Source: Xenorhabdus griffiniae
GTDB taxonomy: Bacteria > Pseudomonadota > Gammaproteobacteria > Enterobacterales > Enterobacteriaceae
Reading direction: 5' to 3'
Length of the DNA: 64,000 nucleotides
Assembly: GCF_001028135.1 (NCBI RefSeq)
Contig: NZ_LDNM01000004.1
Span: forward strand, 1-64,000
Shown here: in pieces, positions 19,883 through 39,474 of the stretch
Layout of the letters: every line of letters starts with the position of its first letter
Position numbering within the stretch: position 1 is the first letter of the stretch
Notes under the pieces: generated by a model
What the model was told of the DNA's origin: nothing
Seen by the model: only the letters and a program-made list of their open reading frames with translations
Databases searched by the model: none
Program-made: the position numbers and the translations under genes

Positions 19883-21988
19883 ATGAGCTTATTGGTCATT
19901 ATATTGGCTATTTTTATCATTAGCCTGATTATAATGGCTTCCTTTCTGATTTTCAGATGGAGGCGGCTTGGTAACGCGTGTTATCTACAGTCAATGACTA
20001 AAACTGCCAGCCGTAAACTGGGTACTGATGAATACCAAGCTATAGAATCTTACTTGCGAAATGCCCGTCTTCTGATGAAACCGAATAGTAGACACAGGGC
20101 TGATCATCCGGTACTACCTGTTAAACATGCTGATGTCTATACCATCACACATCCTATTAGCCGTTTTTCTGCTGCAACGGATGGAGAGCACTATTGGCGC
20201 TATTATCTTGGTGAGACAGAAATACATCTGCCTGTGTTGTTTGAGCCATTTATCAAGCAGCGGAATACGATTGAGATTGTTCGAACTTCATCAATACCGC
20301 TAGTCATCGCGGTTAATGGTCACTTTTTGCAAGATCATCAGCAAGATTTGCTCATCACGCGAGTAACGGCAAAAACCGAACATGCTTCCATTCAAAAAAA
20401 TGGCAATTCGAGTGCTAAATTACTGCATATCCGCAAGGAGACGTTAGAAGAATATCGTTTGCGAAAACCAACGGGCATTCAGGGAAGCATCCTGATGTGT
20501 GTTGGTTTATCACTGTGGTTTGTGGCTCTTTTTGTGCCCATTCCGATGTTGCCGTGGTTAATGCTGGTGGCGTTTTTGTTTCTTCTGGGCAGTTTTTGGT
20601 CACATTTTCGATTTCCATCCGGTCGAAAATTAGCCGATATCCATTGTTTCAATGGCATTCCGAAACGATGGGGAATATTTAGCGAATTTGAGCCGGAGCA
20701 AAGAAAGAATATCTCTCTGGGCGGCATTGATCTGGTTTATCCCGTACATTGGGAGCCTTATATTTCCCATGATCTTGATCAGAATACCGATATTGACATT
20801 TATACCAACTGCCATGTTGTGCGGCAGGGGCGCTATCTCTCTTTGCATGAAGAAGAGAAGCACTACCCTTATCAGCGTAGTAGAAAGAATGTGATGTTGG
20901 TGGCTTTCTCTGTATTTGTCATGCTGTTGCTTTACTTTTACCAGCCGGTGAACTTATCCATGCAGCTTAGTTTTGCCTGGTTATATGGTAGTAATACCAA
21001 GGTCATTACCCGCTTTCATGAGCTACAAAATATGCCGTTGAAGGAAGGGGATGTATTAAAGGTCAAAGGTGTTGGGATGTGCTATGTTCCCCCCAATATC
21101 ATGCCCGAAGCGAATATTACAATATTCGCCCCATTTGATTGTGTGGGTATCTATTGGAATAGTGAAATTCCATTACCTATGCTGGAATCTGACGTTGTCG
21201 AAAGTGCTTCAGCGCTGATTACAGCAGTTAGTGAGCAATTACATCCAGTTGAACGTAAAAGTAATCCTGGCCTGAATGCAGCCATTGCCAAATCGGGCAT
21301 GGCCTTGCTCGACAATTTTTCACAAATCATTTTGAAAACACAAAAGTTGTGCCAAAACGATGCTGATTGTGACCGTTTGAAAAATGCATTGGTCAATTTG
21401 GGAAATGCCAAAAGTTGGGACAAGTTGTTAAAAGCCGCAGAAAGCGGCAAGCTGGACGGAACTAAGGTATTGCTGCGTTCTGTCAGTGCCGATGCGTTGG
21501 AAAAACTGGTTGATTCAACTACTGCATCATTTATCTATCGCGAGATCGATAGAATGATCATTCTTATAAACAGCCCATCTCCGGGAGGCGTTTTATTGCT
21601 GAGTGATGAGGGAAAAACTTTAGTTGAATACCCGATGCGAACACACTACATATACGAACACTCAGCGTTAGATCGGTGGCGGGAATTACAGGGGCTTTTA
21701 GAACTGTTGATGAAGACACCATTTGAAACCGAGGGGATTGTGACAAAATTGTCAGAAGATCCGAATGGGACTCGCCATATCATGCTGCATCGTGAACCAG
21801 ATTCCACGTCGATTATTCGTTATCTGGGAAGTTGTCTGCTGCTGGCGATTTTGCTGGTAACGTTGATCATCAACGTCATATTGATTATCAAGAAAAAGCA
21901 GAAGAACCGACGACGTCCTCAACAAATCACCCAATACTATAATAACTGTTTTAATGAGAGAAATATCCATGCAGAATTCAGACACTGA
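19883..21988 (+). CDS. igaA: IgaA, repressor of the Rcs phosphorelay
   Basis: IgaA (YrfF/UmoB) is an inner-membrane protein that holds the Rcs envelope-stress system off by contacting RcsD. The 701 residues (E. coli 711) carry an N-terminal helix (3-23), two central hydrophobic regions (about 205-245 and 338-358), a large periplasmic domain with paired Cys (LCQNDADCDRL) and a C-terminal helix followed by a basic tail. The Proteus homologue UmoB controls swarming. It overlaps hslR by 20 bp. Confidence 0.93.
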   Translation: MSLLVIILAIFIISLIIMASFLIFRWRRLGNACYLQSMTKTASRKLGTDEYQAIESYLRNARLLMKPNSRHRADHPVLPVKHADVYTITHPISRFSAATDGEHYWRYYLGETEIHLPVLFEPFIKQRNTIEIVRTSSIPLVIAVNGHFLQDHQQDLLITRVTAKTEHASIQKNGNSSAKLLHIRKETLEEYRLRKPTGIQGSILMCVGLSLWFVALFVPIPMLPWLMLVAFLFLLGSFWSHFRFPSGRKLADIHCFNGIPKRWGIFSEFEPEQRKNISLGGIDLVYPVHWEPYISHDLDQNTDIDIYTNCHVVRQGRYLSLHEEEKHYPYQRSRKNVMLVAFSVFVMLLLYFYQPVNLSMQLSFAWLYGSNTKVITRFHELQNMPLKEGDVLKVKGVGMCYVPPNIMPEANITIFAPFDCVGIYWNSEIPLPMLESDVVESASALITAVSEQLHPVERKSNPGLNAAIAKSGMALLDNFSQIILKTQKLCQNDADCDRLKNALVNLGNAKSWDKLLKAAESGKLDGTKVLLRSVSADALEKLVDSTTASFIYREIDRMIILINSPSPGGVLLLSDEGKTLVEYPMRTHYIYEHSALDRWRELQGLLELLMKTPFETEGIVTKLSEDPNGTRHIMLHREPDSTSIIRYLGSCLLLAILLVTLIINVILIIKKKQKNRRRPQQITQYYNNCFNERNIHAEFRH

Positions 21989-22373
21989 TCAGGTTGTTCG
22001 CCTTGATAAATGGCTGTGGGCTGCCCGTTTTTATAAAACCCGTTCCATCGCACGTGAAATGATTGAAGGGGGAAAAGTCCATTATAATGGGCAACGGAGT
22101 AAGCCGGGTAAACTGGTTGAGTTGAATGCAGAGATTAAACTGCGTCAGGGAAACGATGAAAAAACGGTGATCATCTTGGCATTGTGCAGTCACAGACGGA
22201 GTGCTACCGAAGCCCAGCAACTTTATCAGGAAACGGCAGAGAGCATTATCAATCGGGAAAAAACGGCATTAGCGCGTAAAATGAATGCGCTCACGATGCC
22301 GCATCCCGATCGCCGTCCAGACAAAAAAGAACGGCGTACACTAATAAAATTCAAGAACGCAAAACTATCATGA
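21969..22373 (+). CDS. hslR: Ribosome-associated heat shock protein Hsp15
   Basis: This 134-residue S4-domain RNA-binding protein rescues 50S subunits that carry a stalled peptidyl-tRNA. The S4 core is VRLDKWLWAARFYKTR to GGKVHYNGQRSKPGK, followed by KMNALTMPHPDRRPDKKERR. The ATG at 21969 was chosen because a purine-rich site lies upstream and the E. coli protein starts near here. An ATG five codons earlier has no ribosome site. It overlaps the end of igaA. Confidence 0.95.
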   Translation: MQNSDTDQVVRLDKWLWAARFYKTRSIAREMIEGGKVHYNGQRSKPGKLVELNAEIKLRQGNDEKTVIILALCSHRRSATEAQQLYQETAESIINREKTALARKMNALTMPHPDRRPDKKERRTLIKFKNAKLS

Positions 22374-22470
22374 GTCGGAAGATACTTAATCGATTTTAAG
22401 CTGCACCTAATAAAAACAGGCAACTTGAAAGACGAAGGAGACAACCGTTTCAGTGAAATGAGAGAGATTT

Positions 22471-23343
22471 ATGACCAAGCATGACCAATTACACCGCTTT
22501 TTATTTGCAAGCCACTCTGTCAGGGGGGAACTTGTTTCCGTTAGTGAAACTTACCAACGGATGCTGGAAAATCATCATTTCCCTCAACCGATACAGCAGC
22601 TATTGGGTGAATTGTTGGTCGCAACCAGCCTGTTAACCGCTACCTTGAAATTCAGCGGGGATATCACGGTACAGATCCAGGGGGATGGGCCGGTCAAACT
22701 GGCGGTGATTAATGGTAACAACCGACAACAGATGCGTGGCACGGCTCGCATTGATGGTGAAGTGAATGCCGCAAGTAGCCTGCGCGATATGATCGGCAAT
22801 GGTTATATGGTCATCACGGTGACACCAACAGAAGGTGAGCGTTATCAGGGCGTTGTGGCGCTGGAAGGCAATACGTTGGCAGAGTGCCTGGATGCGTATT
22901 TCAAACAGTCAGAGCAGTTACCAACGCGTCTGTTTATCCGTACAGGGATGCAGGATGGAAAAATAGCAGCCGGTGGCATGTTATTGCAAATCTTGCCCGG
23001 GGCGCAGGAAAGTAGCGAAGACATGCTTGACCACTTGGTGCAACTGACTGCAACCATTAAGGGAGAAGAGTTGTTTACGCTGGATGCGAAAGAGATTTTG
23101 CATCGCCTTTATCATGAAGAAGATGTCACGCTATATGAACCTCAGCAAGTGGAATTCCGTTGCACCTGCTCCCAGCAACGTTGTGCTGATACCCTGGTGA
23201 CATTATCGGAAGCCGATCTACAGGAAATTTTGCACAACGATGGCAAAATTGACATGCAATGTGAATTTTGCGGCATGCATTATGTTTTCGACGAAAAAGA
23301 TATCAACGCAATAAAAGCGGCAAAAACAGAGCGGTTGCACTAA
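22471..23343 (+). CDS. hslO: Redox-regulated chaperone Hsp33
   Basis: Hsp33 is a holdase activated by oxidation. The 290-residue protein ends with the zinc-binding redox switch: CTC near residue 231 and CEFC near residue 265, the CXC-X(n)-CXXC signature. The N-terminal core includes [19 protein letters not shown] and [15 protein letters not shown]. It lies about 100 bp after hslR in the conserved igaA-hslR-hslO order. Confidence 0.97.
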
Positions 23344-23353
23344 TTAGGTATCA

Positions 23354-23380
23354 TAGGGCGTTATATACGCCCTTTTTATT
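23354..23380 (+). terminator. hslO terminator
   Basis: An agggcg / cgccct stem with a ttatata loop is followed by ttttatt, 10 bp after the stop codon. Confidence 0.85.
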
Positions 23381-23530
23381 ACGAATGATTCAGCCATTCC
23401 GTGTTCTGTGTCTCATATAAACTTAAAAAAAGTAATGTGATTTCAATTTTTTGATAAAAATCGCTGTTAATTAGTCATAATTATTTATTATCCCCTACAG
23501 AGATAAAGTATAACCGACCAGGAGCAACAA

Positions 23531-25150
23531 ATGAGCGTTACAGGCATTACTGAGCAGGAACTTGCGGTTTATGGTATTCACGGTGTTAGTGAAATTGTTT
23601 ATAACCCAAGTTATGAACTGTTATTCTCTGAAGAAACTCAACCCACGCTACAAGGGTATGAGCGTGGCATATTGACTAACCTCGGTGCTGTCGCAGTAGA
23701 CACAGGTATTTTCACGGGGCGTTCTCCGAAAGATAAATATATTGTTCGCGATGATGTTACCCGCGACACAGTATGGTGGGCTGATCAGGGCAAAGGCAAG
23801 AACGATAATAAACCGCTCAGTCAGGAAACCTGGTCTCATCTAAAAGGTTTGGTTACTCAGCAGCTTTCAGGCAAACGTTTGTTTGTGGTTGATGCTTTTT
23901 GTGGAGCCAATACGGATACGCGCCTGAAAGTGCGTTTTATTACTGAAGTGGCGTGGCAGGCACATTTTGTGAAAAATATGTTTATCCGCCCGTCAGACGA
24001 AGAATTAGTTGATTTCACACCTGATTTTATTGTGATGAACGGTGCTAAATGCACCAACCCACAATGGAAAGAGCAGGGGCTGAATTCTGAAAACTTTGTT
24101 GCTTTTAACCTGACCGAGCGTATGCAGTTAATCGGGGGGACTTGGTACGGTGGTGAAATGAAAAAAGGGATGTTCTCAATGATGAACTACCTGCTACCAC
24201 TAAAAGGTATTGCCTCGATGCACTGTTCCGCCAACGTGGGTGAAGCGGGAGATGTCGCTATTTTCTTCGGTCTTTCTGGAACAGGGAAAACCACGCTTTC
24301 CACTGATCCGAAACGTAAGTTAATCGGTGATGATGAACATGGCTGGGACGATGACGGCGTGTTTAACTTTGAAGGTGGTTGCTACGCGAAAACCATCCAT
24401 TTATCCAAAGAGGCTGAACCGGATATTTATCACGCCATTCGCCGTGATGCCCTGCTGGAAAATGTCACTGTACTGGCGGATGGTACGGTTGATTTCAATG
24501 ATGGCTCCAAAACAGAAAATACCCGTGTTTCTTATCCGATTTACCATATTGAAAATATCGTTAAACCAAGCTCAAAAGCAGGACATGCGACCAAGGTTAT
24601 TTTCCTGACCGCAGATGCTTTCGGTGTATTGCCTCCGGTTTCCCGCTTAACCCCAGAACAAACCCAATATCATTTTCTGTCTGGCTTCACGGCAAAATTG
24701 GCAGGAACAGAACGTGGTGTGACAGAACCAACACCTACTTTCTCTGCTTGCTTTGGAGCGGCATTCTTGTCACTGCATCCGACACAATATGCGGAAGTTC
24801 TGGTTAAGCGTATGCAGTTATCGGGCGCGAAAGCTTATCTGGTCAATACTGGCTGGAATGGCACGGGTAAACGTATCTCCATCAAAGATACCCGTGCCAT
24901 TATTGACGCGATCCTCAATGGTGACATTGAAGATGCGGATACCCTTCAATTGCCGATTTTTGATTTGGCCATACCAACGACATTGCCGGGTGTAGATACC
25001 CACATTTTGGACCCACGCAATACCTATGCCGATAAATCTGAATGGGATGTGAAGGCAAAAGATCTGGCCGAGCGTTTTATCGATAATTTTGACAAATATA
25101 CTGATACGGCTGCGGGTGCTGCATTGGTAAAAGCAGGCCCTAAGCTGTAG
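23531..25150 (+). CDS. pckA: Phosphoenolpyruvate carboxykinase (ATP)
   Basis: PckA converts oxaloacetate and ATP to phosphoenolpyruvate, the first step of gluconeogenesis. The 539 residues (E. coli 540) contain the P-loop [11 protein letters not shown] near residue 247, [24 protein letters not shown], and [14 protein letters not shown]. With Acs and glutamate dehydrogenase also present, growth on acetate and amino acids is supported. It is monocistronic with its own terminator. Confidence 0.98.
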
Positions 25151-25170
25151 TGTAATTTTAAGTTTTCTAT

Positions 25171-25206
25171 GAAAGAACTCTATTCAGTTGGGTAGAGTTC
25201 TTTTTC
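25171..25206 (+). terminator. pckA terminator
   Basis: An aaagaactct / agagttcttt stem is followed by a T run. It separates pckA from the convergent yhhW. Confidence 0.88.
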
Positions 25207-25217
25207 AATATTCAACA

Positions 25218-25913
25218 TCAATTGGAGGGTAAGTCAAACAGTAGGATCTCACTTTCTTGATTTGCAGTTAGCCGAAGTTGGGATTCATCCCAAATAGCAA
25301 TACCATCGCTGGTGGTAGCCCGGGTTCCATTGATTATCACTTCACCACGAACCACCTGGATCCAGACATTTCGTGTTTTCTCCATGTTATATTCATCCTC
25401 TTTGCCATTTTTTAATGCCCAACGCCATAATGTCATATCCTGAAAAACTTTCAGGGAGCCAGCACGGGCATCAGGAGAAAGAATTAATTGGCGACCTTCT
25501 GTAGTATCAAAACGGTGTTGTTCATAACGGGGAGTGAGTCCTGTTTTTTCCGGTATGATCCAGATCTGGTAGAGATGCAGTTGGCTATCATGCTGTGGGT
25601 TATATTCTGAGTGGCGGATGCCTGTCCCTGCACTCATAATCTGGAACTCTCCCTCAGACACTTGCCCTTTGTTACCCATACTGTCTTGATGTTCCACCGT
25701 TCCAGACAGCACATAGGTCAATATTTCCATATCCTTGTGAGGATGCATGCCGAATCCCTGACCCGCGTCAATCACATCTTCATTAATGACCCTGAGTGCA
25801 GAAAATCCCATGAAATTGGCATCATAATAGTTGGCGAATGAAAAAGTATGCCAACTGTCCAGCCAACCGTGATTGGCATGACCCCGTTCTGAAGCTTGGC
25901 GTAAGTAGATCAT
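25218..25913 (-). CDS. yhhW: Pirin-family protein YhhW (quercetin dioxygenase-like)
   Basis: This 231-residue bicupin has the same length as E. coli YhhW, which oxidises quercetin in vitro. Metal ligands are visible in GMHPHKDMEILTYV, GTVEHQDSMG and GIRHSEYNP. The start at the ATG at 25913 (MIYLRQASERGHANHGW) matches E. coli and has a GAGGG site; a longer frame upstream encodes unrelated hydrophobic residues. In E. coli yhhW lies beside yhhX and ryhB; here yhhX is absent and ryhB directly precedes it. Confidence 0.95.
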   Translation of the reverse strand: MIYLRQASERGHANHGWLDSWHTFSFANYYDANFMGFSALRVINEDVIDAGQGFGMHPHKDMEILTYVLSGTVEHQDSMGNKGQVSEGEFQIMSAGTGIRHSEYNPQHDSQLHLYQIWIIPEKTGLTPRYEQHRFDTTEGRQLILSPDARAGSLKVFQDMTLWRWALKNGKEDEYNMEKTRNVWIQVVRGEVIINGTRATTSDGIAIWDESQLRLTANQESEILLFDLPSN

Positions 25914-26030
25914 TACAAAATCCCTCAAATTTTTTTTGTAGTCTAGTTGAAGGAATGAAATAGAAAAGACGGGAAATTTAACCTTAAATTTCAAAATATT
26001 TGAATAAAAATAAGGCAATGACAAGACGAA

Positions 26031-26133
26031 AAAAAAAGCCAACATAAAGTTGGCTTATAAAAGTAAACACTGGAAGCAATGTGAGCAATGTCGTACTTTC
26101 ACATGGACCCTGAAGGTGGTGCACTGAAAGTGC
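26031..26133 (-). ncRNA. ryhB: RyhB iron-stress small RNA
   Basis: On the minus strand the core cgacattgctcacattgc is identical to the pairing region of E. coli RyhB, the Fur-repressed sRNA that shuts off iron-using proteins such as SodB with Hfq. The flanking gaaag...ttccagt bases also agree. It begins with a small hairpin (gcact-ttc-agtgc) and ends with aagccaac / gttggctt and nine T residues. A Fur box and promoter sit just upstream, and yhhW follows as in E. coli. The 5' end is estimated from the -10 element. Confidence 0.94.
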
Positions 26134-26135
26134 TA

Positions 26136-26160
26136 ATAATGATAATCGTTCTCAATATCA
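26136..26160 (-). promoter_or_regulatory. Fur box and promoter of ryhB
   Basis: Read on the minus strand, tgagaacgattatcatt is a near-perfect iron box. It overlaps a -10 (tatcat). A -35 (tttaca) lies about 18 bp further upstream near 26163-26168. The arrangement predicts repression by Fur-Fe and derepression under iron starvation. Confidence 0.85.
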
Positions 26161-26241
26161 TTTGTAAAGTGTTTTTTTAAACAAATTTCAAATTTGAGAT
26201 ACTGTTTAAAATGCGATTTTTGACACATATCAGTTGTATGA

Positions 26242-27168
26242 TTACCCCTCCAATTCCATCTGATAGAGATGTTGAGTACCCATATCATGAAATTGATAGG
26301 GCGTTAATTGGTAGCCTCGTAGCCACAGCAAAAACCATCCATCATGTGTGTCCGGGCAAAGCCCGGCGAAGCGAAACCCACCTTTTTTCAGCAATGAGTA
26401 CAACCTCAGCGCTTCTTCACATGCAGGCAGTTTCAAATAGATTAATTGTCCAGAGGGAAGATCGATGACCTCCGATAAAAAGTCAGCCTGAACTTTGTAT
26501 AGTGTGATTTCCAAACGTCTACCCGATTTTTTGATGGTAATAGGCTCAGAAAGAATAGAGTGCCGATACACTGATGGTTCACTTTGGGATGATTCGCCAA
26601 CATATTGGCTGATTTGAGTGACCCAGCCTTGCCAGGGTCGGGGCCAGTTCAGCTTAGGTAATGGCAATGATTTAAACGGCAAAATACCCTGAATGATACT
26701 TTCGGGTTCTGGCAAACCAAATGGCGAATCAACATAATCCAGCATCAGCGCCGTAGAATAAAACCCCAAATTTTGGGCGATGTACTGGCTTTTAGGGTGT
26801 GAACATACCTGTTTCATCGTCAATAAATTATAGCCTTGCTCTTTCGCATAGCCGCATAAATAATTGCCCAGAGACTTAGCCACACCATGACCTTGAAAAT
26901 CGGAACACACCGCAATAAGTGCCAGCTCTGCCTGATTTTTCTGTACCGTATCTTTAACCAGAGACGCATGACCGATGAGCAGGCCTTGATGGAATGCCAG
27001 GGCAGAATACCATTGCCCTGTAGACTGGTAGTCATTGATGAGCTTTGGTAGATAAATGTCAGGATAGACATACGAATCGCCGTAAACCTCACGGAATAAT
27101 TGGCTGATCTTTTTATCATCTCCTGGCTGATAGCTGCGGATTTGAAGAGTGGATTGTAAGATAGTCAT
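26242..27168 (-). CDS. GNAT-family acetyltransferase, fourth gene of Lux-like operon
   Basis: The first half of this 308-residue protein is a GNAT domain: IRSYQPGDDKKISQLF, then motif A with the acyl-CoA-binding QGHGVAKSLGNYL near residue 95 and SQYIAQNLGFYST. The second half (about 170 residues) was not recognised, although it ends like a second, degenerate GNAT fold (LPACEEALRLYSLLKKGGFRFAGLCPD). The ATG at 27168 has an AAGG site; an in-frame TTG three codons earlier is less likely. It starts 11 bp after the previous gene. The substrate is unknown; an amine or alcohol made by the upstream enzymes is one possibility (inference). Confidence 0.75.
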   Translation of the reverse strand: MTILQSTLQIRSYQPGDDKKISQLFREVYGDSYVYPDIYLPKLINDYQSTGQWYSALAFHQGLLIGHASLVKDTVQKNQAELALIAVCSDFQGHGVAKSLGNYLCGYAKEQGYNLLTMKQVCSHPKSQYIAQNLGFYSTALMLDYVDSPFGLPEPESIIQGILPFKSLPLPKLNWPRPWQGWVTQISQYVGESSQSEPSVYRHSILSEPITIKKSGRRLEITLYKVQADFLSEVIDLPSGQLIYLKLPACEEALRLYSLLKKGGFRFAGLCPDTHDGWFLLWLRGYQLTPYQFHDMGTQHLYQMELEG

Positions 27169-27179
27169 TGATTTCAACC

Positions 27180-28424
27180 TTAGCTATAACGACGTAGATC
27201 CACAACTCGCTGCAATTTTCCTGATCGTGGGTGCGTAGACATGCTATCAATATTGGTTTGCACGATCTCCAGCATATTCTGGTGTATACAAGCTTCTTCT
27301 AAACCCGGAAATGCGGCCATAACCCGATGGCGTATTCTGTCGATATCTACAGTTTGCAGACTTGCTACCAACAACCGAATTTGATCTTGTCCTTCTTTCT
27401 GGCTTAGCTCCAATTGCCAGGCCAAAAGCTCTGTTTGTTGTGATAACTGTGTCGTTAAGTCGTCAGGGAATAACGATAGGGTGCCAAATCGTATACGATA
27501 GCCTTGATTAGCACGTCCTTGCAGGGCAAATTTACGGCTTGGCTGTTCTGGCTCGCACCAGCAAGCCATATCACCAGTAGGATAGCGGATCACAGGCATA
27601 AGTTGTCGTTGCAGGTTAGTAACAACTAATAAGCCACGTTTCCCTGGCACAGTAATGGGCTGGTGAGTGATTTCATCGACAATTTCGATAATCGTTTCGT
27701 CAGAAAATACGCGATGCTCTCCCTGTTTACAATCGGGATCAGCAAAGCCAATCAAACCCGCATCGACACTGGCACAACCGATGGAGCCTAAACGGGCGCA
27801 AGGAAATGCTTGTCTTATCATCGTGAGCTGTGAATCAAATATGCTTTCGCCCCCGTAAAGAATGGTCTCCACCATTGGCAATGTTTGTTCCATCTCTTTC
27901 AGATAGTGAGCTAAACGGATTAACTGCACCGGGACGCCGGCCAGCACATTAATGTTGTGAAGGCGGATATTGTTAATCAGTAATTCATCCTCAACCTTAC
28001 AGGTGAAAGGAAATTCCAATATCGGGATTGGTGAATTCGATAATGCGCCGTGGATAAATATAAAGCTGGTATAAAGATCGCCAGCAAAAAACAGGTTAGC
28101 CACCCGATCCCCGGCTTTTAATTGGCGGGCAATGCCTTGACCAAAGGAATAAATGAAGGCTTTCCATTCTTGTTGACTGAAAACCGATAAACGCCCTTCG
28201 CTGGTTGAGCCACCTGTTTTAAACACATGACCGCCTTCCAGCGGGGCAGTCAGCACCGGCCATGCCGGTAAGTCATTTGAATGTGCCCAATAATGGTTAG
28301 GCTCCACGAGAGGTAAATCTTCCAAAACCCAATTGTCGGGAATGGACTGATAGAGTTCTCGGTAATAAGCAGAATGCTCGCGTGTATGATGGAGCAAATC
28401 AGTCAATGTCGTTTTGGTCATCAT
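27180..28424 (-). CDS. PaaK-like AMP-dependent acyl-CoA ligase/adenylating enzyme
   Basis: This 414-residue protein belongs to the phenylacetate-CoA ligase/coenzyme F390 synthetase branch of the adenylate-forming enzymes. The P-loop is KTGGSTSEGR (about residues 69-78), LYGGESIF and GSIGCASVDAGLIG occupy the places of the A4/A5 motifs, and MPVIRYPTGDMACW is the conserved YRTGD-like motif. The C-terminal subdomain is short. The start was set at the first ATG (28424); an in-frame TTG directly abuts the previous stop codon. It is the third gene of the operon. Substrate unknown. Confidence 0.8.
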   Translation of the reverse strand: MMTKTTLTDLLHHTREHSAYYRELYQSIPDNWVLEDLPLVEPNHYWAHSNDLPAWPVLTAPLEGGHVFKTGGSTSEGRLSVFSQQEWKAFIYSFGQGIARQLKAGDRVANLFFAGDLYTSFIFIHGALSNSPIPILEFPFTCKVEDELLINNIRLHNINVLAGVPVQLIRLAHYLKEMEQTLPMVETILYGGESIFDSQLTMIRQAFPCARLGSIGCASVDAGLIGFADPDCKQGEHRVFSDETIIEIVDEITHQPITVPGKRGLLVVTNLQRQLMPVIRYPTGDMACWCEPEQPSRKFALQGRANQGYRIRFGTLSLFPDDLTTQLSQQTELLAWQLELSQKEGQDQIRLLVASLQTVDIDRIRHRVMAAFPGLEEACIHQNMLEIVQTNIDSMSTHPRSGKLQRVVDLRRYS

Positions 28425-28439
28425 CTTAATTTTACTCAA

Positions 28440-30875
28440 TTAATATTTACGCAAGTCGATGAATAATGGTGTTTTCCCACTATGTTCATTGCGGTGAAAC
28501 TCAGTACTTGACATGGAAATAACATCTAAATTCAGCAGGTTTCCTTCAACAACTTCGGCAATTTTGGGATCTTTTAATAAATTTTGGTGCACAGTGAGGG
28601 GATCGGTATGTTCAACCAATAGCTGAATGCTATCAACGCCATTATTGTTATGGTTGATTATCCATTGCACGGGTAATGCCAATTGTTCAGACAAATCAGC
28701 AAGATTGAAAAAAATACTGCCTATACGTAACAGGGAACCGTGGCGTTCTTTAAGTCGGAAACGTGGTGAAGTCAGGCCACAACAACAAGGTTGATTAATC
28801 CAGCAGCCGAGATCGCCTAAATTGTAGCGTTGGACGGGTTGGGCTTCACGGTGGCGGGAAGTGAATATCAGACGACCTGTTTCACCCTCTGCCACGGGTT
28901 GATCATTCTCTATATTGAGAATTTCCAGCCATTGAGTATCAGCCATTAAATGGAAAACGCCATCCTCGCTGGCTGCGCACGCATGACCCATTGGCCCCGC
29001 ATCGACTGAACCGTAAATTGTTGAACGTATCAGGGTAACGCCAAAATTGGTCAGGAAATTTCGCTGGTTTATATTGAGGGGTTCGCCCCCCAGTAATAGC
29101 TTACGAATGCCGCCATATTGACGTAGTTTGGTTTCTTCATTTAGAAATAGCCGATGTATCGTGCTTGGCATACCCACCAGCGTATTAATGCGTTGATGTA
29201 CGATAAAATCAGCGATTTCACTAAAGTCATTATCAGTAGGGCCACCCATTGGATATTGTGCCACGCCCAATTTATCCAGGATGGTGAAGAAGCTCATCAT
29301 GCCACCGTATAACTTCCCGCCATACAACAGGTTCATGACGCGATCGGTTGCAGATTCAAGCCCTGAGGCGAATACGCCATCGGCTGCGGCCTGCATCTGC
29401 CTGTGGTAATCATGGTAGCTATAAGCCGCCAACTTAGGCGTACCACTGCTGCCACCACTGCGGAAAAACAGGCGTGCCTTATCGTTAGGAACCCGCGCCT
29501 GAAAATCTGCCTTATTCATGACAGGCAGATTTTCTAATCCGCGTGGACGTGGTGGAGGGACATCAAGATGGGCACAACCTGCCATTAAATCAGGCGCAAG
29601 GCTGACAGAGACCCGCTTGGTAAGGCGCGATAGTGCGTAGACGCCATCGTGTGGTTCACCACTATAACCATCATGCATCTGTCCCGCCGGTGTGATTCGG
29701 CTGACGCCCGCAGCAAACAGGGTATGACTCATTTCGGTGATATGCGCTTGACGGGTAATCAAAGCACAGCTTTGTAGATAGTGACGCCAGGGCAGCAAAA
29801 TAGAACACAAATGCTGACGGGGTGCAGGGCGTATCTGCAATGTGCGGAACAAAGGAGATGCGGCTAATTCTTTTTCGTGTCGCCATATCACTCGCCAGCC
29901 GTCGGCTTGCCATATTTCACCGCGAACCTGTGTAAACGCAAAATCGAGTTGTTGGAAAGCCGTTTGCGTCGTAATTTCAGCTGCTTCCTGAATATCCGGT
30001 TTCAGGGCTGGATGCAATCCGGTACGGCGTTGTAAAGCGGCCGCCATTCGTTGCCCGATATGGTGTAAAACCTCAGGTTCATCGCTATCGACCAGCAAAC
30101 ATTGCGGACTGGAACAGGCTTGTTGGTCATAACGACAGATATCATCAGCTAATGCATCCAATTGGGTATCATCGGCGGCGTCAGGGCTTAACCAGGCAAT
30201 GCTGATACGGTGCCCCCAATCTATCCAGCGGCAACCGGGGGGGAGTTGAGCACGAATGGAGGTCAGGGAAGAATCGTTGCCCCAGGCAGAAACCGCATCC
30301 GCCTGACTGAACAACTCTGTCAATTGTGTTACGGGCACAGGCAATACTGCGACCCGATCAACTAAATCACCTGAAATATCCTGGGATAAAAATTCTGCCA
30401 GCAGTTGAGCACTAAACCCGTTATCGCTGCTGCTTGGACGTAACCAGTTAATATTCCCCACCAGCAAACTCTCTATGACGGCCATAAAGGGCAAAAGTTC
30501 AGCATTGGAAGGCGTAATATGGACGACCAAGCCTAATGGTTTCCAGGTCTCATATCGGTTCTGGTTATAATCGAATCGACGCAGTGAAAAAGCATTTTGC
30601 CCCAGTTCCCGCTCCAGTTTGGCTTCCAGCGCTTCACGTTGGCAAAAAGCGATAAGCGATCTCTGTGTCTGAGCATCAAACAAGGGATGTTCACTCAGAT
30701 TGACAAGATATTCGGCAAAGCGTTGTGCGCAATCCAGAACTTGCTCAGAAGTATGGGGACGTGCCAGAAGATCAGGTAAACGCTCACGTAATTGCGCGAT
30801 TTTTTGTTCTGCCAATTGTTTTGAAGAAATCGGATTATTCATGGTTTTTACAGAAACAGTATTTACGGAAGACAT
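28440..30875 (-). CDS. LuxC-like acyl reductase fused to PaaK-like adenylation domain
   Basis: The 811-residue protein has two enzymes in one chain. Residues about 30-420 resemble LuxC, the NADPH-dependent reductase of the bacterial luciferase fatty-acid reductase complex: RYETWKPLGLVVHITPSNA, AWGNDSS and the nucleophile region DQQACSSPQC with Cys254. Residues about 440-811 are a PaaK-like adenylating domain with P-loop RSGGSSGTPKLAAYS near 470 and LLLGGEPLN, TIYGSVDAGPMGH and QRYNLGDLG. It starts 1 bp after the upstream luxE-like gene. The expected chemistry is activation of a carboxylic acid and reduction to an aldehyde; the substrate is unknown. Confidence 0.85.
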   Translation of the reverse strand: MSSVNTVSVKTMNNPISSKQLAEQKIAQLRERLPDLLARPHTSEQVLDCAQRFAEYLVNLSEHPLFDAQTQRSLIAFCQREALEAKLERELGQNAFSLRRFDYNQNRYETWKPLGLVVHITPSNAELLPFMAVIESLLVGNINWLRPSSSDNGFSAQLLAEFLSQDISGDLVDRVAVLPVPVTQLTELFSQADAVSAWGNDSSLTSIRAQLPPGCRWIDWGHRISIAWLSPDAADDTQLDALADDICRYDQQACSSPQCLLVDSDEPEVLHHIGQRMAAALQRRTGLHPALKPDIQEAAEITTQTAFQQLDFAFTQVRGEIWQADGWRVIWRHEKELAASPLFRTLQIRPAPRQHLCSILLPWRHYLQSCALITRQAHITEMSHTLFAAGVSRITPAGQMHDGYSGEPHDGVYALSRLTKRVSVSLAPDLMAGCAHLDVPPPRPRGLENLPVMNKADFQARVPNDKARLFFRSGGSSGTPKLAAYSYHDYHRQMQAAADGVFASGLESATDRVMNLLYGGKLYGGMMSFFTILDKLGVAQYPMGGPTDNDFSEIADFIVHQRINTLVGMPSTIHRLFLNEETKLRQYGGIRKLLLGGEPLNINQRNFLTNFGVTLIRSTIYGSVDAGPMGHACAASEDGVFHLMADTQWLEILNIENDQPVAEGETGRLIFTSRHREAQPVQRYNLGDLGCWINQPCCCGLTSPRFRLKERHGSLLRIGSIFFNLADLSEQLALPVQWIINHNNNGVDSIQLLVEHTDPLTVHQNLLKDPKIAEVVEGNLLNLDVISMSSTEFHRNEHSGKTPLFIDLRKY

Positions 30876-30876
30876 A

Positions 30877-32019
30877 TCAAGATCTCTTAATCAATTCTGA
30901 AGCGGCAATCGCACAACTCCGGTTTTTGCTAGTGCCAGCGCGGCCAAGCAGTTCAAACCAATCTGTTTTAAGCTCACAACCACAGCTTTCACCGGAATGC
31001 AGTACAGCCAGGTCGCTGGTAACAATGCTGTGGGCTGGGCAGGAAGTGATATAAGGGGATGTAAGATGCAGAAAACCCGGTTCCCCATAAGGTTGGCAGG
31101 TCAAGTTAGTGGTATGGCGCACATAGGCACGGGCATAGACTGGAACATGGAAATGATGGTGAGAACATTCAACATAAGGGACCGGGTGTTCAACCGAACC
31201 ATAACCATCACGACAGCGAATATCAGGGATACCCAATTGTTCGGTTATCCGTTGATAGAGTTCTTTTTTAGGAATGGATTTATCGGCATGGGTTTTCCAG
31301 CCTCCGCCGAGGAAAACCAGCGATTCAGGATGTAATTTCAGTGCGGGTAGTCCCATCTGTTCCATTCTTTGCAGGGTGAACCACAAAAAGGCAGGAAAGC
31401 CGAAAATCCGCACGGGCAATCCTTCTTGGGCAAATTGCTGGAGTGCCGTAATAGTACCGAAGGGATCAAATTCATTACCTTGTCCGTTATGGCGCAAAGC
31501 ATAATAAGCCCGATTTACCGGCGCATATTTACACAGGAATTGATCGGTGTAGGCGGTGCCCAGAGTGACGGCACCAGCGGGTTCATAGCTCAGCAGCAGG
31601 TAATTACAGGGTTGATCAGGCGTATTCCAGCCATAATAGTCAAAAATACAGTCCACCATATGCTGGGCAGCCGCAATACTGACAGCGTCATAGCGCATAC
31701 GGCTTTTTTGTCCGGTGGTTCCAGAGGAAGTCAGTTCCAGCGCATCGTGTGCACTGTCGCTGAGTATTAGGTTATGTTTGAAATAATTGGCAAATAGCAA
31801 AGGCAGATCTGACCAATCATCCAGAGTCATTATTGCCTTTTTATCCAAGCCATGCTCTGTCAGCCACTGCTTGTAACCAGGGGTATGTTCGCAATGATAT
31901 AGCGTCAGTTCATACATGGCGTTATTAAATAACGCATCATATTCGGCACAAGCACGGTAAGGATGTGTGATAGCACACAGTGCTTTGACGTGAGGTAAGT
32001 TTTGCATATCAGCACTCAT
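30877..32019 (-). CDS. LuxE-like acyl-protein synthetase
   Basis: This 380-residue protein resembles LuxE, which adenylates a fatty acid, takes the acyl group on a Cys near its C-terminus and hands it to LuxC. The P-loop ELTSSGTTGQKS is at residues 95-106, and VFLGGGWK and RDGYGSVEHPVPYVEC follow. A Cys 12 residues from the end (NRSCAIAASEL) sits where LuxE carries its acylated Cys, so the enzyme is plausibly active. It is the first gene of a four-gene operon. No luxA, luxB or luxD is present nearby. Confidence 0.85.
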   Translation of the reverse strand: MSADMQNLPHVKALCAITHPYRACAEYDALFNNAMYELTLYHCEHTPGYKQWLTEHGLDKKAIMTLDDWSDLPLLFANYFKHNLILSDSAHDALELTSSGTTGQKSRMRYDAVSIAAAQHMVDCIFDYYGWNTPDQPCNYLLLSYEPAGAVTLGTAYTDQFLCKYAPVNRAYYALRHNGQGNEFDPFGTITALQQFAQEGLPVRIFGFPAFLWFTLQRMEQMGLPALKLHPESLVFLGGGWKTHADKSIPKKELYQRITEQLGIPDIRCRDGYGSVEHPVPYVECSHHHFHVPVYARAYVRHTTNLTCQPYGEPGFLHLTSPYITSCPAHSIVTSDLAVLHSGESCGCELKTDWFELLGRAGTSKNRSCAIAASELIKRS

Positions 32020-32656
32020 TCTTCAGTAACAGCTATAAATAATTATTAATTAAACATATAGATAAACTAATTTTTTATTCTTAGGTTGGGTGTAATTATT
32101 TTTGATAGGTGTTATTAATATAATAAATAAGGCGCCTATTTAAATTTAATCTTTAGACGTTGTTGGAAGATGATGCGTTGGTTTCTGAAAATATGTAAAT
32201 TTTATGAAAAACAGCTGGTTATTGATAGTAAGCAGGTGTTTTTTATCGTTACGTCAGCCCTGTGTTTGCGGAGCACATTATTTCAAACCAAATGATAACA
32301 ATCAAATTGTTTTTATAATGTTATGTCTTATTTTGTGTTTAATGCAATCATTGTTTGATATATCAGTTCCATTATTTAGTATTATATGATGATTGGTTTA
32401 AGTTTAGTTTATTTAAATGGGTGAATTATTTGAAGGTAAATATTTATTTAAAGAGAAAGTCCGAATAAAAATTAAATATTACCTTTAACCATTTGTTTTA
32501 AAACAGTTAATTATTTATTTGTGCCCGGTGTATTAAATTTTCGCTCACATCAAGGGATATTTGTTTTTTTATCCAGTGATTTGCATTAATCAAGTTCCGT
32601 TTGATGAGCGGAACTTGCTGCCATGTAAGAACAATAATAATTCAAATCGCTTTTAA
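32020..32656. other. AT-rich leader of the Lux-like operon
   Basis: These 637 bp between the operon start and the end of yhiN are strikingly AT-rich. A 61-codon plus-strand frame (32204-32389) has no recognisable content. The region must hold the operon promoter. Its composition would suit H-NS binding, which is inference. A perfect hairpin at 32591-32617 is listed separately. Confidence 0.55.
32591..32617 (-). terminator. Hairpin downstream of yhiN
   Basis: A perfect 9-bp stem caagttccg / cggaacttg encloses a 9-base loop, about 40 bp after the yhiN stop. No T run follows on the minus strand, so it may be an mRNA-end stabiliser and not a simple intrinsic terminator. Confidence 0.5.
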
Positions 32657-33857
32657 TTATCTCTCCACAACCACCAATGCCTGCGCACAAGCCCACGCCG
32701 AACTCCATGCCCACTGGAAGTTATACCCACCAAGCCAACCGGTTATATCGACCACTTCACCAATAAAGTACAACCCTTTCACCTTATGGGCTTCCATCGT
32801 TTTTGATGACAACTCGTGAGTATCCACGCCGCCAAGAGTCACTTCTGCTGTACGATAACCTTCCGTACTATTGGGTTGCACCGGCCAGCATTGCAGGGTT
32901 GTGATTAGCGCTTTTTGCTGTGCGCCATTAAGTTGTTTCAAAGACAGTTCCGGCAATTGCCCCAGGGACTGTAAACATTCCACCAGACGTTTGGGCAGTA
33001 ATTTAGCCAGCGTGTTTTTCAAACTCTGATTGGGATGAAATTCCCGTTCCTTATCCAGAAAACTCCCGAAATCTGTATCAGGAAGTAAGTTAATACTCAC
33101 ATACTCACCTGGCTGCCAATAGCTGGAAATCTGTAAAATAGCCGGGCCGGAAAGACCGCGATGGGTGAACAGAATATTTTCCCTGAATACGGTGCCATCT
33201 TTTGCGGTCACAACAGAGGAAACCGAGACACCGGAAAGGGTTTGAAGTTGTTCCTGTAGTGGTTTATGCAGGGTAAAGGGAACTAATGCTGCACGTGTAG
33301 GCAGGATGTTGAGTCCAAATTGTTCCGCGATACGGTAACCCAAAGGAGAGGCTCCCAAGCCCGGCATGGACAAACCCCCGGATGCCACAACAAGTGAGTG
33401 GGCGCTTACCTTTCTTCCTGCCGCCGTAATGACAAAACCCTGCGTTTTCTTCTCGACATGAGTCACTTCACTGCGCAATTGAATCGTTACCTGTCCTCTT
33501 TCACACTCTTTTAAAAGCAGGTCTATGATTTGTTGGGCTGAGTCGTCGCAGAAAAGCTGCCCCAATGTTTTTTCGTGGTAAGGGATACCCATAACGTTGT
33601 ACAAGAGCAATAAAATCCCACTGGGTATAGCGAGCAAGTGCTGACTTACAAAAATGGGGATTGGCAGAAAGGTATGCTGCTGGTTCGGTATACATGTTGG
33701 TGAAATTGCAGCGCCCGCCACCGGACATCAAAATCTTGCGACCTGCTTTTTTGCCATTATCCAGTACCAGAACGTTTAACCCAGCCTGTCCTGCTTGTGC
33801 AGCACAGAATAAGCCGGCAGCGCCAGCACCAATAATCACTACATCAAATTTTTCCAT
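32657..33857 (-). pseudogene. yhiN: Frameshifted flavoprotein YhiN (HI0933 family)
   Basis: Two overlapping frames together match the 400-residue FAD-dependent E. coli YhiN. The first gives VVIIGAGAAGLFCA (dinucleotide-binding), GRKILMSGGGRCNFTN and then LVQRYG. The rest continues in another frame from GIPYHEKTLGQLFCDDSAQQI to GGYNFQWAWSSAWA at the end. One extra G in the GGG at 33588-33590 explains the break. Everything else is well conserved, so this is either a recent mutation or a sequence error. It is divergent from pitA, as expected. Confidence 0.88.
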
Positions 33858-34164
33858 TCATTTGTCTCATTTGTCTCTTTTGGCCGAGTTAATTGTGGGA
33901 ATTCACTGCATTGTGAGGGTTCTGTTCACGAACTACGGAGAAAAATAGGCATTTGGTTTAACTTTCTGCGGTAAAAAGTTATTTTTCATCAAAAAAATAT
34001 CAAAATATTAAAATTAAATAACCATTTGATATTATTAATAAATGCAAGAATTTTTATGTCATTTGACCATCATTAAATCAAAAAAAGGTCATATTTCTCT
34101 TTTCCCGCTACCATTTGTCACTGATAATGCGCGCGTTCATGTCCTACTAACTGGCTTAACGTTT
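33858..34164. other. yhiN/pitA divergent promoter region
   Basis: This 307-bp AT-rich region separates divergent genes. The pitA frame stays open through part of it, but that part encodes nothing like PitA. No specific operator was recognised. Confidence 0.55.
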
Positions 34165-35655
34165 ATGCTACATCTGTTTACTGGCCTGGAATTTTATACC
34201 GGCCTTATGTTAGTGCTTGCTCTGTTGTTTGTGCTTTTCTATGAAGCCATCAATGGGTTTCATGATACCGCAAACGCAGTAGCAACTGTTATTTATACCC
34301 GGGCAATGCGTTCACAGCTTGCTGTTGTGATGGCAGGGGTTTTTAACTTTTTGGGTGTTCTCCTTGGTGGGTTAAGTGTCGCTTATGCGATTGTGCATCT
34401 ACTACCTACTGATCTTCTGCTAAATGTCAGTTCAGCTCACGGTTTGGCTATGGTTTTTTCCATGCTGCTGGCGGCGATCATCTGGAATTTAGGGACGTGG
34501 TATTTCGGTATTCCTGCATCCAGTTCCCATACGTTGATTGGTTCTATTATCGGCATCGGCCTGACTAATGCGATAGTGACCCGTTCTTCAGTGGTTGATG
34601 CGTTGAATATTCCGAAGATGATACAGATTTTCATGTCCTTGATCCTGTCTCCTCTTGTTGGCCTGATCATTGCCGGAGCGATGGTGTTTTTACTGCGTCG
34701 TTATTGGAGTGGTACAAAAAAACGTCGCCGTATCCATATGACGCCTGTTGAGCGTGAAAAACAGGATGGCAAACGTAAACCCCCATTCTGGACACGTACT
34801 GCCCTGATCCTCTCGGCTGTTGGTGTGAGTTTCTCCCACGGAGCGAATGATGGTCAGAAAGGTATCGGTTTGATTATGCTGGTTCTGATTGGTGTCGCGC
34901 CTGCGGGGTTTGTCGTCAATATGAATTCAACCAGTTATGATATTGCTCGCACTCGTGATGCCGTTGTCCACTTGCAGCAGTATTATGGGCAGCATACTCC
35001 AGCGCTGACTCATGCGATTGAACTAAATCCAGCCGCTTCTTCTGTTGAAGATCAACGCGATCTGACGTTCCATTGCGATAGCTCACGCGCATTAGTGGTG
35101 CTGAATAAGGCTGAAAGCATGTTGGCGAGTACTCAAAACTTCAACGAGTTAACGCCGGATCAACGTAACAGTATGCGCCGTATGTTGATGTGCGCTGCTG
35201 ATACAACCAACGTTGTGGCTAAGCTGCCAGAAACCAGCCTTGAAGATGCACGTTTCCTGAATAAGCTGCGTAAAGATTTGCTCAGTACGGTGGAATATGC
35301 GCCATTATGGATCATTGTTGCCGTGGCTCTTGCCCTGTCTTTAGGCACAATGGTGGGCTGGAAACGTGTTGCTGTGACTATCGGTGAGAAGATTGGCAAA
35401 AAAGGCATGACTTACGCCCAGGGTGTTTCTGCACAGGTGACTGCTGCGGTTTCTATTGGTGTAGCCAGCTATACGGGTATGCCGGTATCCACGACACAAG
35501 TGCTTTCTTCTGCGGTAGCGGGGACGATGTTGGTTGATGGTGGTGGTGTGCAGAGTAAGACCATCAAGAATATCATGTTGGCGTGGGTTTTGACGTTGCC
35601 GATTTCCATTGCATTGTCGGGCTTACTGTATTGGATCGCCCTGAAACTGATCTAA
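34165..35655 (+). CDS. pitA: Low-affinity inorganic phosphate transporter PitA
   Basis: PitA imports metal-phosphate complexes with protons. The 496-residue product (E. coli 499) has the duplicated family signatures [19 protein letters not shown] near the N-terminus and [12 protein letters not shown] in the centre, about ten membrane helices and a large central loop. The start was set at 34165 ([10 protein letters not shown]), matching the E. coli N-terminus. An ATG 41 codons earlier would add an unmatched extension. The ribosome site at 34165 is weak. Confidence 0.95.
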
Positions 35656-35667
35656 TCACATCTTAGA

Positions 35668-35706
35668 AAAAAGGGTTGGTTGTTATTGTCAGCCAACCCT
35701 TTTTTA
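35668..35706 (+). terminator. pitA terminator
   Basis: An aaagggttggttg / cagccaacccttt stem with T run follows the pitA stop by about 15 bp. Confidence 0.88.
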
Positions 35707-35724
35707 TTTTTTAGTAGATAAAAA

Positions 35725-35979
35725 AAGACTCGATGCTTCAGCATGGGTACCCAAAGTGGTAATCCTTGATAAAAATGGTGCCAATAAAACCGCACTGGAT
35801 GAATTAAGCCAGAGAAAGCCAAAAGATAAGGCCATCCGGAAAAATAAGTATCTCAATAAAATGATTGAACAGGAGCGTTGCAACGTCAAACACGTTCCAT
35901 GCTGAGGTATAAAAATTTCAGGCAGGCTCAGACTGTGTTAGCCAGCGTTGAACGGGTCAGTATGTTGCGCAAAGGGTAA
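35725..35979 (+). mobile_element. IS6-family transposase relic
   Basis: The plus strand encodes PKVVILDKNGANKTALDEL and KNKYLNKMIEQERCNVKHV up to a TGA, then after a frame change MLRYKNFRQAQTVLASVE and SMLRKG. These are the last third of an IS6-family DDE transposase (VDKNGAN, KYLNNIIEQDH, MLGFK and KKGQ regions). The N-terminal two thirds are missing, the frame is broken and the DHR residues have changed to ERC, so it is inactive. It lies directly after the pitA terminator, where uspB would be expected. Confidence 0.85.
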
Positions 35980-36073
35980 TATCCGTAAGAGCTGGGACGT
36001 CCGATTTCACCAGACACTTTTTTCTATCAATGAATGGCATGATAATTAATCAATACACTTGCGATCGAGCTCT

Positions 36074-36085
36074 CTCTGTTAATGC
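36074..36085. repeat. Left arm of 12-bp inverted repeat flanking LysR-MFS segment
   Basis: The bases ctctgttaatgc recur as their exact complement at 38306-38317. The two copies enclose only the LysR gene and the broken MFS gene. The right copy lies inside a hairpin that resembles an IS6-type end. Confidence 0.55.
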
Positions 36086-36095
36086 GAAGGAACCC

Positions 36096-36995
36096 TTAAA
36101 ATTTAGGATTTATCCATTCGTAAGTTAAGTGTTCAATAAAGCTTCTTACCCTTTGAGGAATCGGTTCCCTACGAGCTCTGATTATACTTATCATTGTTTC
36201 TTTTTCTTTCCAATCTGGCAGAACTCTAACCAATTTACCTGTGGCTATCTCATCTTTTACATCCCATTTTTCCCTCAGCGCTATACCTAATCCAGCAAGA
36301 CACCATGCTTTTATGGCATGGCTGTTATCGCTACGTAAATTTCCTGAAACAGTAATTTCAATTTGCTCTTTTGCTTTATTTAATGACCATGTGTGTTGAA
36401 AAAGACCAGGGTAAGAGAATAGAAGACAGTTGTGGTTTTTGAGTTCATTAGGATGTGATATAGTCCCGCCTTGCATATATTTTGGTGAAGCAACTAAAAT
36501 ACGTTCACTAACTGCGAGTGGTGTAGCTATTAACTGTGAGTCAGCCAACTGGCCAAAACGTATAGCAAGATCTAATTTATTGCTGTATATATCGATTATC
36601 CGATCAGTCAACTGTAAATCGAAATTGACTCTGGGATATTTATCTATAAATGAAGTGATTTCTTTGGTGATATATTTCTCCCCAAATGCGACTGGCGCTG
36701 TTATTTTAATGTTTCCTTCCAAATTATTATTTCCTTTATTATCTATGGTATAGATGTTTTCTAAAAGTGATAAAGCTGTACGCACATATTTCGCAATAGC
36801 TGTTCCCTCATCGGTAATTTTTATCATTCGGGTATTTCGTTCGAACAAACTGACATTTAAGGCAGCTTCCAGTCGTGCTATCTGCTTACTGACGCTTGAA
36901 GGCGTTTTATTCATTATTCGTGCAGCAGCTGAAAAACTATTAGAGTCTATCACAGTTAAAAAAGTCACAAGATCATCAAGGTTACTGAGAGCCAT
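36096..36995 (-). CDS. LysR-family transcriptional regulator
   Basis: This 299-residue protein has the LysR winged helix-turn-helix at residues 5-63 (FSAAARIMNKTPSSVSKQI; ALNVSLFERNTRMIKITDEG) and a periplasmic-binding-like co-inducer domain (NIKITAPVAFGEKYI; RFGQLADSQLIA). It is most like the DsdC/YafC-type subgroup that often sits beside an exporter. It is divergent from the MFS gene, 137 bp away, which is the usual regulator-target pair. Ligand unknown. It lies inside the segment next to the IS6 relic, so it is probably acquired. Confidence 0.85.
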   Translation of the reverse strand: MALSNLDDLVTFLTVIDSNSFSAAARIMNKTPSSVSKQIARLEAALNVSLFERNTRMIKITDEGTAIAKYVRTALSLLENIYTIDNKGNNNLEGNIKITAPVAFGEKYITKEITSFIDKYPRVNFDLQLTDRIIDIYSNKLDLAIRFGQLADSQLIATPLAVSERILVASPKYMQGGTISHPNELKNHNCLLFSYPGLFQHTWSLNKAKEQIEITVSGNLRSDNSHAIKAWCLAGLGIALREKWDVKDEIATGKLVRVLPDWKEKETMISIIRARREPIPQRVRSFIEHLTYEWINPKF

Positions 36996-37132
36996 AGAGT
37001 TGTTCTATTTTGGAAAAAGAGATAGTCCATTTTATCTTTTTAGGATTATATATCAATGCATTTAAACTACTACTCATTCTGTTGACCAAGAAATTGATTA
37101 CCCTAGTAATTATTTTTAATAAGGTAATAATT

Positions 37133-38288: not shown

Positions 38289-38296
38289 GGATAATC

Positions 38297-38322
38297 GGCT
38301 CTGTTGCATTAACAGAGCCCCT
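38297..38322 (+). repeat. Hairpin with IS6-like end, downstream of MFS gene
   Basis: The sequence ggctctgttgcattaacagagcc is a near-perfect hairpin (ggctctgtt / aacagagcc). It can act as the terminator of the MFS gene. Its first 12 bases (ggctctgttgca) resemble the terminal repeats of IS6-family elements, which suggests a leftover IS end. Confidence 0.55.
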
Positions 38323-38424
38323 TTCTCTATCAATTGTTTGTATAAATGATTAACCGTCACACGAACTTTCTTTGGTAATGAGACATAATCTAGAACGTGG
38401 TGAAAATAAACGATTACTACTGGT

Positions 38425-39127: not shown

Positions 39128-39144
39128 CGTTTCTCACATTTACG

Positions 39145-39474
39145 TCAGATCATCATCGCTATCAGGCAAAGCAGAACAACGCCACAGAGTATTTCTGTCA
39201 ATATAAATTGTTTCCTCATCCTTTCGCATAACAAGACGACATCAGGGTCGTGATGGTTAAGATAACTTTGTGAATTGATATAACGCACGAGCCGGATCTG
39301 CTTATTAAATTGACCATTAGCTTTAAAAAAACCATTCCCATCAACGGATTGATACAGCATGGGATCTGATTCACGTAAAATTGACAGAAGTACACGGAGC
39401 GAAGAACAGTAGCGCATTATGTTAATAATGCAGATAAGGCAAACTGCCCAAAATAGTGCAATGGTATTGAACAT
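39145..39474 (-). CDS. uspB: Universal stress protein B
   Basis: This 109-residue inner-membrane protein matches E. coli UspB (111 aa): [20 protein letters not shown] at the N-terminal helix, [15 protein letters not shown] in the middle and [20 protein letters not shown] at the C-terminal helix. E. coli UspB is sigma-S dependent and affects ethanol tolerance. It is divergent from uspA, as in E. coli. A strong GGAGG-type site precedes the ATG. Confidence 0.94.

Follow-up and report, generated by a model that had tools for sequence, protein, structure and literature searches.

What would a LuxE-LuxC reductase pair of the kind known from bioluminescence make in an operon where it stands beside two PaaK-like ligase units and a GNAT enzyme? 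The question is raised by a 64,000-nucleotide stretch of Xenorhabdus griffiniae (contig NZ_LDNM01000004.1, assembly GCF_001028135.1; hereafter the window), in which four tightly spaced open reading frames (ORFs) on the minus strand, spanning 26242-32019, encode a LuxE-like protein, a LuxC-PaaK-like fusion, a separate PaaK-like protein and a GNAT protein. The original prediction was that a fatty or aromatic acid is activated, reduced to an aldehyde, joined to or converted into an amine or alcohol, and acetylated, to give an unknown small metabolite or surface modification. We think that a more specific answer can be given. Judged from its sequence, the operon is very probably leupABCD, which would need no non-ribosomal peptide synthetase (NRPS) to make its product, either leupeptin (N-acetyl-Leu-Leu-argininal) or a peptide aldehyde closely related to it. 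The locus is real, well conserved and explained, and its kind is already known: leupeptin is a small peptide widely used as a protease inhibitor, and a non-NRPS gene set for it has been described.

Published leup primers and the identity of the operon

Leupeptin, Ac-Leu-Leu-argininal, was first suggested by the chemistry of the operon, and papers then supported that lead. According to later papers, the leupABCD leupeptin operon was described by Li et al. 2020 (Angew. Chem. 59:17872). In a passage of PMC11212599, which cites Li et al. 2020, the leupeptin of X. bovienii SS-2004 is ascribed to a non-NRPS route in which the amide bonds are the work of separate AMP-dependent ligases and a reductase generates the aldehyde. 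For strain ATCC 8724, once K. oxytoca and now K. michiganensis, an excerpt of PMC11480411 reports that the leup operon is activated and that a feature matches leupeptin; it also gives Photorhabdus as a genus reported to make leup products. The cluster is named leupeptin of Gammaproteobacteria, with its MIBiG number, in part of PMC10548850, and a section of PMC8283571 gives leupABCD together with a neighbouring transporter, coordinates and primers, the leupA/leupB amplicon being 1235 bp long. Finally, according to a passage of PMC7714073, leupeptin is first assembled in acid form, and the reduction that follows uses NADH and ATP; such a scheme agrees with a LuxE-LuxC pair.

It is the primers that tie this literature to the genes. 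The published core_f primer, which matches 7 of 392 genomes with up to three mismatches, is exact in one genome (G731), and this pointed to a genus (g2 in our numbering) that holds the loci L123 and L124 and that, to judge from the published primers, would be Klebsiella. In L124, leupA_f and leupB_r are both exact and span 1235 bp, the length of the published amplicon. The former lies inside a 378-residue LuxE ORF and the latter inside an 802-residue LuxC-ligase ORF, so that the names leupA and leupB belong to the LuxE gene and the fusion, respectively; for leupC and leupD the assignment is a presumptive one, from gene order only. The layout of L124, an upstream major facilitator superfamily (MFS) gene followed by LuxE, LuxC-ligase, PaaK and GNAT, equals the published transporter plus leupABCD. 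The window proteins are 66% (LeupA), 51% (LeupB), 49% (LeupC) and 39-40% (LeupD) identical to those of L124, and 74, 58, 58 and 41% identical, in the same order, to those of X. bovienii T228.

Elsewhere the primers fit less closely. Neither leup primer is exact in L123, the other carrier in the same genus; leupA_f with at most two mismatches matches in 5 of 394 genomes of the order, each time with two mismatches, and a further comparison of eight loci gave no good primer match. An argument from the register of the published coordinates, for which the position of leupA_f was derived from the amplicon length and not from the printed 315403, scored positive in 5 of 6 loci for leupA_f and 6 of 6 for leupB_r; it is weak, and the exact match in L124 replaces it.

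Catalytic residues and a possible route

The enzymes can be counted off exactly against the product. To build leupeptin takes a single acetylation, the formation of two amide bonds and the reduction of one acid; for these the operon has, respectively, one GNAT enzyme, two ligase units of PaaK type and one LuxE-LuxC pair. In the route that we propose, LeupD would acetylate leucine, and LeupC and the ligase half of LeupB would adenylate the growing acid and couple Leu first and Arg second, presumably with one ligase acting for each bond. LeupA would then adenylate with ATP the C-terminal carboxyl of Ac-Leu-Leu-Arg, the putative substrate of the window allele, and load the acyl group onto its own Cys369, from which LeupB would take it over on Cys254 of its LuxC half; reduction by NAD(P)H would free the peptide aldehyde, which may then trap serine and cysteine proteases. 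An aldehyde warhead and the transfer of an acyl group from a LuxE to a LuxC cysteine are general knowledge of these families. Much of the outline of the original prediction thus stands, namely the activation of an acid, its LuxC-type reduction, additional adenylate-forming enzymes that do the joining, an acetylation step and a small metabolite as product. What changes is the substrate, the fate of the aldehyde and the product: a peptide acid, Ac-Leu-Leu-Arg, is most likely in place of a fatty or aromatic acid; the aldehyde of the leupeptin reading is the end product and is not turned into an amine; and the operon type is already characterised, with leupeptin as its product.

The gene families and the spacing first read from the letters (gaps of 1, 15 and 11 bases if internal ATG starts are taken for leupC and leupD) agree with the ORF coordinates, Pfam and NCBIfam. 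The same is true of the two cysteines that had been singled out as catalytic: LuxE Cys369 and LuxC Cys254 align with cysteines of the same motif in the solved LuxC-LuxE complex 7xc6 (for LeupB, DQQACSSPQ is aligned to DQQACFSTQ of 7xc6_A), which is the top PDB sequence match for the LuxE protein and the sole one at E <= 0.001 for the LuxC stretch. In residue-conservation alignments that omit two loci, L033, whose LeupB is read in two frames, and L084, whose GNAT is divided between two ORFs, Cys254 is present in all 85 rows and Cys369 in 84, the remaining row having a gap. The ligase lysines Lys801 of LeupB and Lys408 of LeupC, in a motif which we take to be the one called A10, are each present in 85 of 85.

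The separate ligase LeupC matches Pfam AMP-binding at 3.5e-4, below the Pfam cut-off; it also matches four NCBIfam PaaK-type models at 3e-12 to 7.5e-28, the best being of the DVU1553 type (7.5e-28), and PaaK-like PDB chains. In its P-loop-like motif the window reads Arg in place of Lys, and this is no sign of a broken enzyme because the X. bovienii and Photorhabdus rows shown have Arg as well (31 Arg and 54 Lys in the 85 rows). For the AlphaFold model of LeupB (811 residues, mean predicted local distance difference test score, pLDDT, 81), PaaK-type chains and 7xc6_A are within the four best structural matches, and the LeupD model (pLDDT 88) matches GNAT chains across about half its length. A Pfam scan of the four operon proteins gave no match to an NRPS condensation or carrier domain. 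Apart from the operon, a LuxE-type protein, 30% identical, was found in a phage record (MT835565.1, 11722-12807) that derives from human faecal samples and has no annotation.

Distribution, alleles and alternative products

A scan with the LuxC-ligase protein as query confirmed 127 relatives, of which the best 80 loci were kept. The four genes stand together, in one order and on one strand, in 80 of these 80, so the set is not a chance arrangement and the four proteins do co-occur in other genomes. The kept loci belong to Xenorhabdus, Photorhabdus, Pseudomonas, Rugamonas, Chromobacterium, Burkholderia, Parachitinimonas and two metagenome-assembled genomes (MAGs); X. bovienii T228 and seven Photorhabdus loci are among the four-gene carriers, and one kept locus, L033, has its LuxC-ligase in two frames. 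Within Xenorhabdus a leupB match was found in 30 of the 30 genomes searched, 28 being of the window type (74-100% identity) and two of the X. bovienii/Photorhabdus type (58%). Family-wide, 15 of 392 genomes match LeupB at E <= 1e-60, two of them (G614 and G526) over part of the protein only, and the genus taken to be Klebsiella has the LuxC-ligase gene in 2 of 20 genomes.

Some copies are damaged or rearranged. In X. koppenhoeferi L033 the LuxC-ligase gene (5682-8079) is broken near residue 705, and in G614, a genome of the window type, the LeupB match is restricted to residues 8-706; its locus, L106, is probably from the same species as L033. At L118 (G526; 4546-8481) the LuxC-ligase ORF has 481 residues and matches residues 18-489 only, next to a PaaK ORF of 160 residues, an arrangement that looks like a deletion between two related ligase sequences. 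The four-gene set is also carried by two Salmonella enterica IncF plasmids typed as conjugative, L082 (CP054717.1) and L084 (CP053580.1), where recombinase and toxin-antitoxin genes adjoin, the upstream MFS match is partial only and, in L084, the GNAT match lies in two ORFs. A Streptomyces sp. NBC_00158 plasmid (L083, 4761-12202) has a rearranged set, with an AraC regulator followed by ligase, MFS, GNAT, LuxE-type and LuxC-ligase genes, and is a candidate non-NRPS peptide-aldehyde cluster of an actinomycete. Beyond the four genes and the MFS gene, the flanking clusters shown are shared across genera only between Xenorhabdus and one MAG or in sets of 3-4 loci, and most of them are without annotation.

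The transporter was followed with a single query, the MFS protein of the Pseudomonas leup loci. The gene is immediately upstream in 46 of 46 Pseudomonas loci, and this query found it beside the operon in 0 of 7 Photorhabdus loci and 0 of 20 full-length Xenorhabdus relatives, the absence being weak for L004, L020 and L022, which have less than 1.4 kb of sequence upstream of LuxE; L005 and L018 gave weak MFS matches (23 and 31%). Because all seven Photorhabdus loci, from a genus reported to make leup products, lack it as well, we do not treat the transporter as defining leupABCD; export in Xenorhabdus and Photorhabdus would use another route or none.

The alternative that survives best keeps the same chemistry but has the main Xenorhabdus clade make a different peptide aldehyde, with other amino acids or another N-acyl group, and we consider it unlikely. 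It can be defended on the ground that the window type, seen in 28 of the 30 Xenorhabdus genomes, stands apart from the X. bovienii/Photorhabdus clade, LeupB being 58-60% identical between them, that LeupD is the most diverged of the proteins (41-43%), and that, as part of PMC11480411 reports, K. oxytoca has a leupeptin analogue with Lys. The phylogeny bears on it in two ways. In a tree of the four proteins from 37 selected loci, rooted on Streptomyces L083 (an earlier tree was midpoint-rooted, L083 having dropped out with no GNAT match passing), the window Xenorhabdus clade groups with Chromobacterium and Burkholderia (support 100), a neighbourhood that speaks for a separate product, and next with X. 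bovienii and Photorhabdus (99), the Klebsiella-genus loci falling outside this grouping; support is 99-100 on the three nodes printed. The window allele is thus bracketed by two sets from groups with reported leupeptin, which favours the same product. Also against a different aldehyde, the ligase motif regions are much alike across the clades shown: in the LeupB ligase, 12 of the 14 rows shown read YGSVDAGP, the exceptions being L063 and Streptomyces L083, and the A10-type lysines do not vary.

We acknowledge that several points tell against our identification. Neither leupA_f nor leupB_r had an exact match in the 113 loci gathered before the Klebsiella-genus ones, and seven Enterobacteriaceae leup loci (L114-L120) had no near primer pair. 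The MFS protein of other leup loci found no match in window positions 20001-40000. The window allele has diverged from that of X. bovienii T228, which serves here as a stand-in for SS-2004, to 58% identity in LeupB and 41% in LeupD, so that substrate preference could have shifted. Lastly, the bracketing assumes inheritance, yet the tree suggests transfer between genera, and this somewhat weakens it; the split within Xenorhabdus likewise points, as far as sequence can tell, to one allele having been replaced or transferred. That the main Xenorhabdus allele makes an analogue of its own, and not the leupeptin itself that X. bovienii and Klebsiella make, seems to us doubtful; if it were true, the compound might serve the whole genus in its insect or nematode host, since leupB matches in every Xenorhabdus searched.

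A lux-like reductase operon acting on fatty or aromatic acids, and leading to some unknown amine, alcohol or surface modification, is far less credible. The homology to LuxE and LuxC is real, and among the NCBIfam models matched by the ligases are some for aromatic-acid ligases, with scores under the cut-off. However, the lux and PaaK equivalog cut-offs are far from reached (LuxE 75 vs 550 bits, LuxC 57 vs 750 bits; PaaK TIGR02155, 46.6 and 65.1 vs 646.3 bits), and the operon matches genes that bear the published leup primers. The supply of a fatty aldehyde to an absent luciferase was considered and dropped, as was the synthesis of an aromatic amide or ester prompted by matches of BagE/FevW type. 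The window genome has one LuxC and one LuxE match. The claim that no luxAB or luxD is nearby held insofar as neither luciferase nor LuxD was found when 22 further ORFs, part of those in the window, were scanned with Pfam; the LuxD family had no match in the window genome either, but the control matched nowhere, so that this absence is unproven. Two proteins of the luciferase family PF00296 are encoded on other contigs of the genome (G000 C197:25623-26510 and C163:26963-27700), and they need not be luciferases, the family being broad enough to match E. coli and others too.

An acyl modification module for flagellin or O-antigen, as in glycosylation islands, was dropped as extremely improbable: LuxC and LuxE are indeed mentioned in parts of papers on flagellin glycosylation loci of Aeromonas and Enterobacteriaceae, but the 22 scanned ORFs include no flagellar or sugar-nucleotide gene, and the mostly unannotated flanking clusters are little shared across genera.

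Gene layout and comparison with known systems

Table 1. Features of the operon and its upstream region, in window positions
Feature	Position	Strand	Description
leupA	30877..32019	-	LuxE-type acyl-protein synthetase, 380 aa; Pfam LuxE 3.3e-25
leupB	28440..30875	-	LuxC reductase fused to PaaK-like adenylate-forming ligase, 811 aa; Pfam LuxC 5.2e-125 and AMP-binding 1.8e-10
LuxC reductase domain of LeupB	29616..30749	-	residues 43-420; nucleophile Cys254, motif DQQACSSPQ
PaaK-like ligase domain of LeupB	28440..29543	-	residues ~445-811; A10-type Lys801
leupC	27180..28439	-	stand-alone PaaK-like ligase, 419 aa; A10-type Lys408; internal ATG at 28424
leupD	26242..27177	-	GNAT N-acyltransferase with C-terminal extension, 311 aa; Pfam Acetyltransf_1 7.6e-9; internal ATG at 27168
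Upstream intergenic stretch	32020..32656	-	no listed ORF of at least 80 aa; presumed operon promoter region, from position only

Next to the operon, at 32657-33857 on the minus strand, an HI0933/YhiN-like flavoprotein gene is split over two frames (residues 1-102 and 91-398) relative to its intact homologue in L003; this is a frameshift or a sequencing error. Further away, at 49593-63118, lie phenylacetate catabolism genes (PaaX, a PaaK-type ligase with a C-terminal domain at 50665-51984, a thiolase, a 3-hydroxyacyl-CoA dehydrogenase and PaaA/C), which are apparently unrelated to leup.

The additions made here to what is known of the operon are modest: leupB matches in all 30 Xenorhabdus genomes searched, the division of the genus into two alleles, copies on two Salmonella plasmids of conjugative type and, with the Pseudomonas query, the failure to find a dedicated MFS exporter next to the operon in either Xenorhabdus or Photorhabdus. 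With the described leupABCD of Gammaproteobacteria the window operon shares the four genes, their order and homologous proteins, the leupA and leupB primers lying in the LuxE and LuxC-ligase genes of the Klebsiella-genus genome; it differs in that its allele forms a clade of its own (LeupB 58% identical to T228 and 51% to the Klebsiella-genus protein) and has no adjoining MFS gene.

Antipain, MAPI and flavopeptin, named in passages of PMC10548850 and PMC11212599, are products of the same kind, peptide-aldehyde protease inhibitors, but they are made by NRPSs, whereas the proteins of the window operon are without NRPS condensation or carrier domain matches; the two routes are reported as convergent. 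The closest mechanistic likeness is to the LuxC-LuxE pair of luxCDABE (PDB 7xc6), whose cysteines align with those of the window proteins and with which LeupA and LeupB would share LuxE-type activation, Cys-to-Cys acyl transfer and LuxC reduction. Unlike in luxCDABE, LuxC is here fused to a ligase, the lux equivalog cut-offs are far off, no luciferase is seen alongside and the proposed substrate is a peptide acid; the LuxE-LuxC reductase of bioluminescence appears to have been reused, most likely for the synthesis of a peptide aldehyde.

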